Shown here: positions 1,265-5,262 of the stretch, piece after piece
Position numbering within the stretch: the stretch's first letter is position 1
How the letters are laid out: each line of letters opens with the position of its first letter
IMG/VR virus record: IMGVR_UViG_3300010389_000067
Coordinates: 1 to 32,692 of that record
Direction: 5' to 3' (one strand)
DNA from: a virus
Length of the DNA stretch: 32,692 nt
Notes under the pieces: model-generated
The model's database searches: none
Told to the model about the DNA's origin: nothing
Seen by the model: the letters and a program-made list of their open reading frames with translations, nothing else
Made by a program: the position numbers and the translations under genes

Positions 1265-1580
1265 ACACAGCCTGTGCAGTTCTAAACACTGGGATGCATA
1301 ACGATTCTGCCTTGCGCACTTCTCGATCTGCGCCAGCACTCTCGCCCGGCAATCGCAATACACAATCACACATCGGCAAAAATGCCAAATCAACAGCCAT
1401 CCAATCTTCATATTGACGAGGTTGGTGTAAGTGCAAAAAATGCGATAACAATGGCGCATAGGGAGAAATCCCCAAATCCATCAGCTCGTGTGCCGCCACA
1501 ATCTGAGCACGCACATTCTCTGCCGTGTCACCAATAGTATATGGCGATGCGATATAGCACTTCACACTCCACAATGCCAT
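1245..1580 (-). CDS. DUF4406 / nucleoside 2-deoxyribosyltransferase-like protein
   Basis: A 111-residue Rossmann-like protein of the nucleoside 2-deoxyribosyltransferase superfamily. It has the N-terminal strand and loop YIASPYT (residues 9-15), the helix ENVRAQIVAAHELMDLG, the stretch YAPLLSHF, and the C-terminal LRLPGESAGADREVRKAESL (76-94), which in relatives binds the nucleotide and carries the Glu nucleophile region. Phage members are thought to act in nucleotide salvage or modification, but few have been tested. The ATG at 1580 shares one base with the stop of the helicase-methyltransferase (TAATG), so the two are translationally coupled. A link to modified DNA is possible but is inference. 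Confidence 0.75.
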   Translation of the reverse strand: MALWSVKCYIASPYTIGDTAENVRAQIVAAHELMDLGISPYAPLLSHFLHLHQPRQYEDWMAVDLAFLPMCDCVLRLPGESAGADREVRKAESLCIPVFRTAQAVYEHYRQ

Positions 1581-3841
1581 TATACCACCTCCGCGAACAA
1601 CTCAGGCGTTTGAACGATTTCCTCAGCCGATTTGAGATTGCGCACGGCAGAATCGAAATACGACCGCTTCAACTCGATGCCAACAAAACGACGATTCAAT
1701 TGGATAGACTTAAACCCTTCAGATCCAACACCCGCAAAAGGAGAAAAAACCAGATCGCCCGGTGCGCTCCACAATTTCACGGCACGCTCAATGACACCCA
1801 ACTGCAATGGACACAAATGCCGTTCATCGTCCGTTTCGCGTGCCTGCCGAACATTTAAAACATCAGTCTCACGAATACCGCCGGGATAGTCGGGCGTTTC
1901 CCGATACCATACAGGTGCAGCCCACTCAATCCATTCCTCTTGCGTTATCCAGCCATCGCCTGCGCCATACTTCTTGCTGATCCCTGCTGTAATAGGACGA
2001 GGATTGTCGCCGGGTTTGCGAAATTGCAAGAGGTAATCAGCCAATGCCATATGCATATGCGAGCTGTCATTTGCCAGCGTCTTGAACAATAGCCCTCGGT
2101 CTTTAGTGCGAATGGCTTTGAGTTGTGGGCATTTGTCAATGCAGACCTCACCGTAATAAATCCATCCCGCCTCTTGCATTGCCTCGATGGTTTTGCCTCG
2201 AAAGTCTTTGATGCCGATATACCCATCAGTGCCTTTAAACGCTACGGCCTGTGTTAAGTGCATCGCGCAAGACCGCCCCGGCATCGTAATTCGCATCAAG
2301 TCTTTCATTAAAAACTTGAAGTGCTCAATCATCTCATCGAATGATTGGGCATTGCCCATATCGCGTGCAGAATTGGTGTAGGCATACATTGACGGGAATG
2401 GAGGCGAAAACACCGACAACCCAACGCTATCGGTTTCAATTTCTTTGATGCGGTCGCAAGAGTCTCCCAACATCAGATGCCACCCCTTGCCGTATTCGTC
2501 GTCGGTCTGGTATTCCATTTCATCTCTACGTGTGTTTTGGATTTGCACGTTTAACCCTCTCATTTCTCGCACAATAGAGCGTATCATTTCATTGGCCTGT
2601 TTTTCTTTGCGCTGGATGTTGCGCACAACTGCGCCCTCTGTTTGTGCGGTAATAATGTGGACATTGACATCTTGTTTTTGGCCGAACCGCCAACACCGAC
2701 GGATAGCCTGATAAGTCTGCTCGAATGAATCGGAAAGCCCCACAAATGCAATGTTGTGGCAGTGCTGCCAGTTCATCCCAAATCCACAGATAGTTGGTTT
2801 GCTTATAAGGACGCGCACCTCACCACGGGTAAAAGCCATCAAAGACTTTTCTTTGTGTTCGTTGCTGTCAGAGCCTTTGACTTCCACCGCATCAGGTATA
2901 GCCTTCTTGAGTGCTTCGGATTCGCTGTTGAGGTTGCACCATATCAACCACGCATCATCATTACCGTTCACCATCTCAGCGCACCGGGCCACACGGTCTT
3001 GCAGGCTGTCTTTGCGTGCCTCTCTGCGCTCGTTCAATGTCTGTGCTTCCATCGGAAAGAGCGTATGCAGATTATCAAGTTGAACGTGGACAGTGTCTTG
3101 ATGCATTTTTAGTTCGGGCAGGTCAAAGCCTTCATCGGAAAATCCCAAATCAGATGGCTTTTGCAATGCCACAGACCAAGACGCCATCCACTTCCAAAAG
3201 TCCTGCCGCGCGTGGCCTTTCAGTCGCCATTTGTGAGTTGTGTTGCCATCCTGCGTGAAGAACAGCGCAATGATCTCCTTGCTTTTCATCACTTCTAAAA
3301 ACTCTGCGTGATTGGTCAATTCAATCAAGTCATTGGGAGCTGGTGTTGCGGTGCAGGCCAAGCGGTAGTTGATCTCTTTGGCAAAGTCAGTAATGTCCTT
3401 GCGATATTTACCGTCAAATGATTTCAATATGCTGGACTCATCAAGAACGATTGCGCCAAAATCATCTGCATTGTAATGATGGAGCCGTTCATAATTCGTA
3501 ACATTGATACCACTTTTCACATCTGCCCCAGTCCGACACAGATTGACTGGTATGCCAAACTTCTCACCCTCAATTAAAAACTGCTGACCAACTGCCAATG
3601 GCGTGAGTATGAGCACGTTTTGATTTGTTTGCTTATGGATCTGATTTCCCCACTCTAATGCCATCAATGCTTTGCCCATACCGCAATCTGCAAATATCGC
3701 AGCACGTCCACGCTTGAGTGCCCACGTCACAATTTTGTGTTGAAAATCAAACAATGAAGGGTTGATGTTCTCTGCCACAACATCAAATCCCACATCTTCA
3801 GTTTTGATACGTTTTGATTCTAAAAATTCTTGATAACTCAA
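1580..3841 (-). CDS. SNF2-type helicase / DNA methyltransferase fusion
   Basis: A two-domain protein of 753 residues. The N-terminal SF2/SNF2 ATPase has a Walker A DCGMGK at 52-57, the DESS box at 134-137, TATP at 164-167 and motif VI QAIRRCWRFGQ at 378-388. The C-terminal half is a beta-class N4-cytosine/N6-adenine methyltransferase: catalytic SPPF at 479-482 precedes the SAM-binding FSPFAGVGSEG at 699-709, an order typical of PF01555. Such fusions occur in phages and prophages and may methylate phage DNA while translocating, but the target base is unknown. The residue after the Walker A lysine is Ala58, not Thr/Ser. The start chosen is a TTG at 3841, 7 nt after GGAGG within GGAGGTGG; it gives LSYQEFL, the usual beginning of the family. 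A TTG at 3928 is the alternative. Confidence 0.85.
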   Translation of the reverse strand: MSYQEFLESKRIKTEDVGFDVVAENINPSLFDFQHKIVTWALKRGRAAIFADCGMGKALMALEWGNQIHKQTNQNVLILTPLAVGQQFLIEGEKFGIPVNLCRTGADVKSGINVTNYERLHHYNADDFGAIVLDESSILKSFDGKYRKDITDFAKEINYRLACTATPAPNDLIELTNHAEFLEVMKSKEIIALFFTQDGNTTHKWRLKGHARQDFWKWMASWSVALQKPSDLGFSDEGFDLPELKMHQDTVHVQLDNLHTLFPMEAQTLNERREARKDSLQDRVARCAEMVNGNDDAWLIWCNLNSESEALKKAIPDAVEVKGSDSNEHKEKSLMAFTRGEVRVLISKPTICGFGMNWQHCHNIAFVGLSDSFEQTYQAIRRCWRFGQKQDVNVHIITAQTEGAVVRNIQRKEKQANEMIRSIVREMRGLNVQIQNTRRDEMEYQTDDEYGKGWHLMLGDSCDRIKEIETDSVGLSVFSPPFPSMYAYTNSARDMGNAQSFDEMIEHFKFLMKDLMRITMPGRSCAMHLTQAVAFKGTDGYIGIKDFRGKTIEAMQEAGWIYYGEVCIDKCPQLKAIRTKDRGLLFKTLANDSSHMHMALADYLLQFRKPGDNPRPITAGISKKYGAGDGWITQEEWIEWAAPVWYRETPDYPGGIRETDVLNVRQARETDDERHLCPLQLGVIERAVKLWSAPGDLVFSPFAGVGSEGFKSIQLNRRFVGIELKRSYFDSAVRNLKSAEEIVQTPELFAEVV

Positions 3842-3929
3842 TTTACCACCTCCATAGTTTTTGATTACGTACTCCCATCGTAGTTTGGATGAATGCAACC
3901 TAACACCGTTCAAGCTCCAAATCTTCAAC

Positions 3930-3999
3930 CTCTGGCTCCGGGGTAGAGTTACCCCCCTATTATCCCCCCAGTAAAAATATTACCAGAGAGTCTACCCCG
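3930..3999 (-). promoter_or_regulatory. Interlocked inverted repeats in the leader of the methyltransferase gene
   Basis: Read on the minus strand, CGGGGTAGA (3999-3991) pairs with TCTACCCCG (3947-3939), and CTCTGG (3988-3983) pairs with CCAGAG (3935-3930). The two stems cross each other, so an RNA would form an H-type pseudoknot or switch between two folds. The loop holds two runs of six G (TGGGGGGATAATAGGGGGG). It lies about 90 nt upstream of the preferred start of the helicase-methyltransferase and abuts the alternative TTG at 3928. A role in controlling translation of that gene is inference; no known riboswitch class was recognised. Confidence 0.4.
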
Positions 4000-4500
4000 T
4001 ATGCCGTCGGCAGTTAGTTTCTCGCCGTCACAGTGCAGGCCATCTGCTCACTTACCCCTTACCTGCGCTGACTGCCTGAGTAAGTGCGCCTCCTGTGGGC
4101 TTCCACCACAGGCAAAGTGCTTGTTCTCGCACCGATTAATTGCGCCCTGCTCAACGCCTACGCTTCTGAGCCATCACCCCGAACCACTTCGCTGTAATGG
4201 TGTATGCCCCCAATCAGCTTATCACGGATTTTGCATACATTGCGTGTCGTGGTCTAACGTGCCTGTGTTCACAGGAGAACGCATATTCAATTTTTACTTC
4301 GGTGTGCTTGTTTGCCTCGGTTCAACCCCCGCAGGTGGTGAACACTCAAAAGGTGACCGCACAAAAGGCGTAAAAAATTCGTTGCCAATAAACTTGAGCT
4401 TGCTTACCTTGCGCGTGTGGCCCAGCTATGCTGAGTCACGTTGCTGGCGGTATCGGCAACTCTCGCAAAGTATCCCGATACCGCTATATTTTTGCCCAAT
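4000..4500. other. Gene-free stretch with many short hairpins
   Basis: About 500 nt with no convincing gene on either strand, in a genome that otherwise overlaps its genes. The minus strand has only frames of about 30 codons or fewer, without good ribosome binding sites. The plus strand has one long frame, judged spurious. Several short inverted repeats occur, for example CTGTGG/CCACAG near 4093-4112, CCTGTG/CACAGG near 4262-4275, and the strong hairpin at 4447-4484. No tRNA, tmRNA, group I or group II intron signature was found. It could be a structured RNA, a long 5' leader or an origin region. Confidence 0.4.
4447..4484 (-). repeat. Perfect 10-bp inverted repeat (hairpin)
   Basis: GCGGTATCGG at 4447-4456 is the exact reverse complement of CCGATACCGC at 4475-4484, with an 18-nt loop. 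There is no T-tract on either side, so it is not a standard terminator. It lies 17 nt beyond the U-tract of the putative RNA at 4501-4640. Confidence 0.5.
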
Positions 4501-4640
4501 AAAAAAGGCGGTTCTACGCGACCACAATCACCAGCCGACACAGGGTCATTTGGGGAAAGCACCCGATTGGATACGGGTGACGTAAAACCGCCATTAACAG
4601 GCAGAAAAAAACCTGTGTCTGGTGCTTGTGATTGTGGTCG
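4501..4640 (-). ncRNA. Candidate structured ncRNA or attenuator ending in U6
   Basis: Read on the minus strand from about 4640, CGACCACAATCAC (4640-4628) pairs perfectly over 13 bp with 4531-4519, and GACACAGG (4619-4612) pairs with 4544-4537, making one long arm. In its loop, GGCGGTTTTACG (4592-4581) pairs over all 12 positions (one G-U) with CGTAGAACCGCC (4518-4507), which begins directly after the long arm and is followed by TTTTTT (4506-4501). A small hairpin CACCCG/CGGGTG (4579-4560) and an alternative ACAGG/CCTGT hairpin (4616-4597) sit inside. The stems cross, giving a pseudoknot with coaxially adjacent helices, or else a terminator/antiterminator switch. The likely transcription start predicted from the promoter at 4647-4675 falls at the first paired base. 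Confidence 0.5.
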
Positions 4641-4646
4641 TGGGTA

Positions 4647-4675
4647 AAGATACAAGGTAAACGCGCTCAAGTCAA
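4647..4675 (-). promoter_or_regulatory. Sigma70-like promoter
   Basis: TTGACT (4675-4670, 5 of 6 consensus bases), a 17-bp spacer and TATCTT (4652-4647, 4 of 6), pointing left. It starts 4 nt after the stop of the 82-aa gene, so it can only serve what lies downstream: the structured RNA at 4501-4640 and, by read-through, the helicase-methyltransferase. The predicted transcription start is near 4640. Confidence 0.5.
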
Positions 4676-4679
4676 CACC

Positions 4680-4928
4680 TCAATAACTAAAATTTGGCTT
4701 GCTACTATCCCAACTGCTATTCCCTATCACCTCTGCTGTCTCCAACTCTGGACGCTCACTTACAAACGCTTCTATCTCAGCTTGGCTATACACACGCAAG
4801 CTGTATTCTGCTTCTAAGGCACGAACTGCTCGCTTGCTACGCGGTGCCTTGCTCAGTAGCTCGTTGCGCCTGTTGCGCATCTTCTGTGCGGTAGGTGACA
4901 GCTTTGGCACCTTGAATTGTCGCATCAT
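4680..4928 (-). CDS. Unknown basic protein, 82 aa
   Basis: Starts with ATG at 4928 (or the next ATG at 4925), 4 nt after the HNH gene stop, with AAAGG upstream inside that gene's end. The frame is open back to 4985 but that part overlaps the HNH gene. The product has a basic helical centre (PTAQKMRNRRNELLSKAPRS, then KRAVRALEAEYSLRVY) suggesting nucleic-acid binding, then an acidic C-terminus (SERPELETAEVIGNSSWDSS). I do not recognise the family. It is the last gene before the non-coding stretch. Confidence 0.55.
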   Translation of the reverse strand: MMRQFKVPKLSPTAQKMRNRRNELLSKAPRSKRAVRALEAEYSLRVYSQAEIEAFVSERPELETAEVIGNSSWDSSKPNFSY

Positions 4929-4932
4929 TGTA

Positions 4933-5262
4933 TCAACCTTTCCCGTGAACTTTTCTGTGACACCGAGAGCACAAGAGAACACCATCGCGTATCACATCTT
5001 CTTCAAAAAGCGTTCTGTAATGAACGTGGTGAAACGTCAGGCTTTTCTTGCTTGGGCATAACTGGCACTTGCCGTGTATCGCTATGGCGGTGTCTTTGAG
5101 GCGTTGGAAGTGTTCCGTCTTCTCATACTTGCGCCTCAACTTCTCAGGTGGTGCGGTCTTGCACTTTGCCAGATCGTGAGCATCGCCAACGGTTAGCCCC
5201 TGCTTGAATGGATTTGATTCTACTTTGCAGTTCCAGGCGTTGATTTGGTCTGCAATGTTCAT
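4933..5262 (-). CDS. HNH endonuclease
   Basis: A 109-residue HNH nuclease with zinc-finger ligands. Cys66-x2-Cys69 (CQLC) and Cys98-x2-Cys101 (CSRC) form the structural zinc site; the active-site segment is FHHVHY at 77-82, ending with CHRKVHG at 101-107. The N-terminal 60 residues are helical and may bind DNA. Free-standing small HNH proteins in phages act as nicking or homing enzymes or in packaging. This one lies among recombination and nuclease genes rather than beside the terminase, so a packaging role is less likely. The ATG at 5262 overlaps the preceding stop (ATGA). Confidence 0.8.
   Translation of the reverse strand: MNIADQINAWNCKVESNPFKQGLTVGDAHDLAKCKTAPPEKLRRKYEKTEHFQRLKDTAIAIHGKCQLCPSKKSLTFHHVHYRTLFEEDVIRDGVLLCSRCHRKVHGKG

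Follow-up and report, generated by a model that had tools for sequence, protein, structure and literature searches.

A crossed-stem RNA in a phage genome as a candidate promoter-proximal attenuator

Control of replication genes by premature transcription termination is described in the satellite phage P4, where the CI RNA pairs with seqA, which lies upstream of the CI RNA itself, and with seqC, and the replication genes are shut off (PMC4825925). In plasmid control of the pT181/pIP501 type, a leader is placed between the promoter and the rep gene, and a pre-emptor competes with a terminator that lies shortly before the start of rep (PMC5703833); there an antisense RNA made from the other strand acts as the trigger, and the partner of the pre-emptor is the 5' arm of the terminator itself. 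A third arrangement comes from the prophage Gifsy-1, in which transcripts from the IsrK promoter either end early, giving a small RNA, or continue as mRNA (PMC4825925). The crossed-stem layout considered here is not described for phages in the papers searched, which were open-access and included little of the older P4 work.

The window, the whole stretch of DNA analysed, is a 32.7-kb virus record (32,692 nt) that carries a terminase, a major head protein and a weak match to a CII-like regulator, and nearly all of its gene-like frames lie on the minus strand. Between a small gene and a helicase-methyltransferase fusion it holds an RNA region with the following parts, listed in the direction of transcription:

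4680-4985: small gene, upstream of the RNA
4647..4675, minus strand: sigma70-like promoter, TTGACT at 4675-4670, a 17-nt spacer and TATCTT at 4652-4647 (9/12 in the promoter scan)
4628..4640, minus strand: S1a, 5' arm of the outer stem, at the predicted transcript start (CGACCACAAUCAC); complementary to 4531-4519 at 13/13 positions
4612..4619, minus strand: 5' arm of the inner extension of S1 (GACACAGG); 8 bp with 4544-4537 in the predicted minimum-energy fold
4581..4592, minus strand: S2a, 5' arm of the putative terminator stem, within the S1 loop (GGCGGUUUUACG); pairs with 4518-4507
4560..4579, minus strand: hairpin CACCCG-8-CGGGUG between S2a and S1b, in the minimum-energy fold
4537..4544, minus strand: 3' arm of the inner extension of S1 (CCUGUGUC), in the minimum-energy fold
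4519..4531, minus strand: S1b, 3' arm of the outer stem, in the loop of the putative terminator hairpin (GUGAUUGUGGUCG)
4507..4518, minus strand: S2b, 3' arm of the putative terminator stem, with a 0-nt gap to S1b (CGUAGAACCGCC)
4501..4506, minus strand: U-tract (T6 in the sequence), directly after the S2 stem
3842..4500, minus strand: non-coding stretch of about 660 nt from the U-tract to the helicase start, with no gene-like frame on the gene strand
1580..3841, minus strand: helicase-methyltransferase fusion, the downstream gene (PHROG helicase 6e-68, methyltransferase 2e-27)

The first-pass annotation had proposed this promoter, with a predicted start at about 4640, and a 13-bp S1 with an 8-bp inner stem, crossed by a 12-bp S2 that abuts S1b and runs into six U residues; promoter, stems and U-tract were confirmed base for base in place on the minus strand. 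The outer S1 stem joins 4640-4628 (CGACCACAATCAC) to 4531-4519 in 13 bp with no mismatch, S2 joins 4592-4581 to 4518-4507 in 12 bp including one G-U, and the two stems cross. Promoter matches of this kind are expected by chance (18 found in the window by the consensus scan against 16.6 expected), so that the promoter by itself is unremarkable and its placement is what counts: the -10 element ends 6 nt ahead of S1a, and the predicted start, 6-7 nt past TATCTT, falls at S1a. The fold of 4640-4501 reaches -56.2 kcal/mol, whereas shuffles average -34.9 (z -5.5) and 0/200 of them are equally stable. The combined score of S1, crossing S2 and U-tract is 59, a value reached in 0/1000 Markov shuffles of the whole window scanned on both strands (best shuffle 58.5), with a descriptor built after the window had been seen, which makes this a fair test of rarity and not a blind one. 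A conserved protein frame had been named as one sign against an RNA; the open frames across the region (194 aa on the plus strand, 88 aa on the minus strand) have no PHROG family match, and a coding explanation was rejected.

The downstream gene has a probable TTG start at 3841, preceded by GGAGGTGG, as judged from alignment to its closest relative and from local sequence; the first-listed start of the frame, at 3928, is an upstream extension of it. This places the helicase start 665 nt from S2b. The intervening leader (3842-4500, minus strand) contains two more structured stretches, 3931-4050 (z about -3.4) and 4411-4530 (z about -3.3), the latter with a 10-bp hairpin, GCGGTATCGG/CCGATACCGC.

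Known RNA families and sequence relatives give no match. The statement that no RNA family could be recognised holds for Rfam 15, which yields no match to the window RNA above the gathering threshold; a permissive E-value search returned meaningless matches alone (for example a CRISPR repeat at E 3.8, and mir-665 at another phage locus, L010). IsrK resembles the proposed window RNA in combining a prophage promoter with a choice between stopping as a small RNA and reading through. IsrK has its own Rfam family, however, and would then be excluded for an RNA that matches none. No sequence homolog was found by blastn against phages and plasmids, by a pattern scan of viral contigs or among 50 relative contigs. 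The closest phage (L002) shares 76% DNA identity over the helicase and keeps the flanking genes, but the crossed-stem element is absent there, and its place is taken by a non-coding leader of about 430 nt that is unrelated to it. That leader (L002:4578-5000) has no U-tract, and by eye its GTTCAC/GTGAAC pairing crosses GAGCC/GGCTC. Conservation in relatives, which had been expected of a real element, thus fails at the level of sequence; what is conserved, in other phages, is the layout. Two further comparisons were set aside: an HDV-like ribozyme has a similar strand order but, by eye, the window RNA gives no hint of the catalytic core or of a reason for cleavage at a transcript start, and a brief look for a type III toxin-antitoxin system, a CRISPR-like decoy or a retron showed no fitting neighbour or match.

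A common plan of promoter, S1a, S2a, S1b, S2b and U-tract recurs in about 20 phage RNAs. Among phage loci fetched through helicase and terminase homology, strong matches of unrelated sequence occur at L208, L021-L023, L112 (two), L042, L046, L165, L170, L218, L234, L032 and L010, and in most of them the promoter is positioned for a start at or just ahead of S1a. Over all loci, 20 unique matches with a promoter score at least 50 against 1 in reversed DNA; L021, L022 and L023, which are nearly identical, are counted among the 20, and at least one match (L197) is probably an artefact of repeats. An open frame begins 5-60 nt after the element in 17 of the 20, a figure biased by the fact that reversal destroys frames too, and most instances end 10-50 nt ahead of a start codon. 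The high scorers L126, L197/198, L222, L281 and L358/359 have a repeat-rich or palindromic look and were excluded as support; L197, which gets through the promoter filter, nevertheless stays inside the count of 20. A relaxed first descriptor gave weak enrichment, and a loose duplex-energy descriptor did no better than shuffles and was dropped. An independent test used 80 loci fetched by their DUF1376-type replication protein alone: six of them, one being the query's own contig, have the element 15-18 nt ahead of the replication gene, where 0.01 would be expected.

Could such patterns arise by chance, or from an inverted-repeat element that acts at the level of DNA and has no RNA function? Without the promoter filter the excess shrinks to 43 unique matches at a score of at least 50 against 23 in reversed DNA, because repeat-rich phage DNA yields such patterns, and the plus strand of the window region is structured as well. 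Yet a cruciform cannot form from crossing arms, the oriented U-tract and the promoter point to RNA, and neither the shuffles of the window, nor the count of promoter-bearing matches, nor the covariation described below fits this explanation, which we regard as very improbable.

One set of these leaders, family A, can be aligned. It has 14 members: 11 alignable loci, a twelfth (L386) found by the model, and two circular phage genomes from Manatee Spring, MW202462 and MW202520 (examples are L395:1166-1268 and L428:4876-4990, the latter being MW202520). Two named phage genomes outside the training set were matched by the covariance model at E 9e-18 and 2e-10. The order of parts is P1a, P1i-a, P2a, P3a, P1i-b, P3b, P1b, P4, P2b and U-tract, in which P2, P3 and P4 make up a branched terminator hairpin while, in P1 and P1i, the start of the transcript is paired with the hairpin junction and the P3 loop. 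Both stem sets covary: across P1, P2, P3 and P4, 97.2% of cells are paired, compared with 36-46% when one side is slid, and 26/36 pairs have changed on both sides, a level reached by 0/500 shuffles; P1i, misaligned by gaps, was left out of this count and is present in the individual sequences checked. The distance from U-tract to ATG is 16-21 nt in 12/12 members measured, though the genes differ. The members tested have no Rfam match, 45 genomes with related loci gave a single weak match inside a coding sequence, and 398 Pseudomonadota genomes gave none. Family A alone is a well-supported RNA family missing from Rfam 15. In MW202462 the family A RNA is overlapped on the opposite strand by an annotated 'hypothetical protein' (L424:817-1059), which is probably not a real gene.

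Family A and the window RNA have in common the promoter, S1 with its inner extension, the crossing terminator stem and the U-tract. The fixed features of the family (CUUGG/CCAAC, the P3 hairpin, the P4 hairpin and a P2 of 18-19 bp) are missing from the window RNA, which the family model R1 does not match at E<=1. The two also differ in spacing. Family A has no linkers: P1i-a abuts P2a, P2a abuts P3a, and the P3 loop is exactly P1i-b. Once P2 has formed, the strands of P1i would lie an estimated 50 Angstrom or more apart, and for this reason helix geometry suggests that P1i and P2 are mutually exclusive. In the window, linkers of 19 and 36 nt could let both stems form at once as a true pseudoknot.

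Folding of growing transcripts is consistent with a switch in most of these RNAs. S1 is predicted when transcription has reached the end of S1b in 22/22, the window included, where it is the minimum-energy fold, and adding S2b flips the prediction to S2 in 18/22. An antiterminator that forms first, a deeper terminator and an outcome set in between is the behaviour of an attenuator, as far as these predicted folds go. The window is one of the four exceptions, S1 remaining the more stable nested fold in the full RNA (-56 against -45 for S2); here S2 may add to S1 as a pseudoknot or form weakly.

Our preferred reading, to which we give a probability of roughly 0.55, is that the window element is a promoter-proximal attenuator of the terminator/antiterminator type, which yields a small RNA on termination. 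RNA polymerase would start at about 4640; S1a and S1b would pair once S1b emerges, making S1 the antiterminator, with S2a caught in its loop; and when S2b emerges, S2 would be able to form right before the U-tract as the terminator. Where S2 wins, an RNA of roughly 140 nt would be released, and where S1 holds, transcription would run on toward the helicase-methyltransferase. As trigger we favour the released RNA: its S1b is exposed, could pair with the 5' tail of a transcript still being made and so keep S1 from forming, which would steer later rounds into termination, a logic shared with P4 CI RNA and with plasmid rep leaders; a protein trigger or plain kinetic tuning is equally possible.

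We infer regulated termination, and the working of the window copy as an attenuator, from the shared layout and from its position upstream of a gene class that has such leaders elsewhere; this does not rest on covariation of the window RNA itself. The same plan stands directly before helicase-methyltransferase genes at L046, L165 and L042 and before replication genes at other loci, which speaks for the attenuator ahead of the helicase-methyltransferase that the first-pass annotation had suggested. For this particular copy, the missing sequence homolog, the nearest relative without the element and the distant helicase start count against it, as do the persistent stability of S1 and linkers that might admit both stems. 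The other suggestion, a small RNA, is compatible with an attenuator because a terminated leader is itself a small RNA; both readings stand, and the comparative data favour the attenuator. By class, the element would work like a transcription attenuator; it belongs to no Rfam 15 family and falls outside family A.

A stand-alone, very stable small RNA is a tentative alternative. S1 would lock the 5' end, S2 and the U-tract the 3' end, both together as a pseudoknot, and the molecule would act in trans on host or phage RNA, with the downstream gene a mere neighbour. The remoteness of that gene and the greater stability of S1 suit this explanation, as do a complete promoter-to-terminator unit and linkers which, together with the 0-nt gap between S1b and S2b, are estimated from geometry to suffice for a coaxial pseudoknot. 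On the other side, the plan is elsewhere fixed 10-50 nt ahead of start codons, the family A stems would exclude each other, and complementarity of the window RNA to targets in the phage genome is at chance level.

The genes that follow these leaders are mainly replication, helicase or methyltransferase genes:

DUF1376 primosomal proteins: L170, L373, L393, L395, L402, L389
Replication initiators, Lin1244-like and O-like: L112, L022
DnaD-like protein: L010
Prim-Pol: L032
Helicase-methyltransferase: L046, L165 and L042, with the element directly before the gene, and the window
DNA methyltransferases: L386 and the second L112 copy
Serine integrase: L208

Other observations attach to individual leaders. 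A kissing-loop version precedes a helicase-methyltransferase at L236:4860-4990, with a TTGACA promoter in front and a hairpin loop, AAUGGUCG, whose complement CGACCA sits in the next terminator's loop. The crossed-stem RNA before Prim-Pol includes a tRNA T-arm-like stretch, CCGGTTCGAGTCCGG (L032:11740-11770); L170:6359-6451 (minus strand) has an Rfam anti-hemB match at E 5e-4, under the gathering score; and a G-rich, apparently structured leader lies upstream of another helicase-methyltransferase homolog (L008:2900-3060).

How close does this come to the described systems? Crossed-stem leaders resemble the pT181/pIP501 type in lying between promoter and replication gene and in a pairing that competes with a terminator. 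Unlike there, the competing stem engages the loop and junction of the terminator, and no plus-strand promoter that could drive an antisense RNA is listed in 4501-4680 (consensus scan, which weak promoters may escape). With the P4 CI RNA and its seqA-seqB they share a same-strand leader RNA and replication genes controlled by premature termination (PMC4825925), and also complementarity between a 5' segment and part of the regulatory RNA, a feature that S1a and S1b provide in the window. In P4, a longer leader is processed to give the CI RNA, and seqC provides a second target; the window showed neither, and no strong downstream complementarity of the seqC kind appears there. Immunity of the P4 type and control of the pT181 type serve as analogies only.

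A specific form of attenuator, in which the analogy to P4 would extend to RNA-only feedback or immunity, is doubtful. The S1b of a terminated leader would bind new 5' tails and block S1, so that a putative resident phage would silence its own and incoming replication genes and the diversity of sequence would define specificity groups. P4 itself sets the precedent, repressing replication genes by RNA-dependent premature termination (PMC4825925); the genes downstream here are for the most part replication genes, the P3 hairpin loop of family A is the exact P1i partner, and the stems are fully complementary yet wholly different from phage to phage. Against this, the window has no second target, the contigs of L112 and L046 each hold two leaders of mutually unrelated sequence, and the crossed-stem descriptor run on P4 does not detect the P4 element, its immunity region giving no comparable match.

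The wider proposal, that phages possess rapidly diversifying leader RNAs whose 5' end pairs with their own terminator loop and whose terminated RNA feeds back in trans, is likewise an unlikely one. If true, it would mean copy-number or immunity control by RNA only, with no protein repressor and with compatibility groups defined by sequence, and the replication and DNA-modification operons of many phages would stand under such leaders. If the attenuator reading is right, crossing-stem attenuation would be a common phage gate on replication and methylation genes, overlooked because between phages the layout alone is conserved and not the sequence. It would also offer a terminator/antiterminator that can be programmed by sequence and has diversity built in, and a direct route to test the use of RNA in place of a repressor by phages beyond P4.
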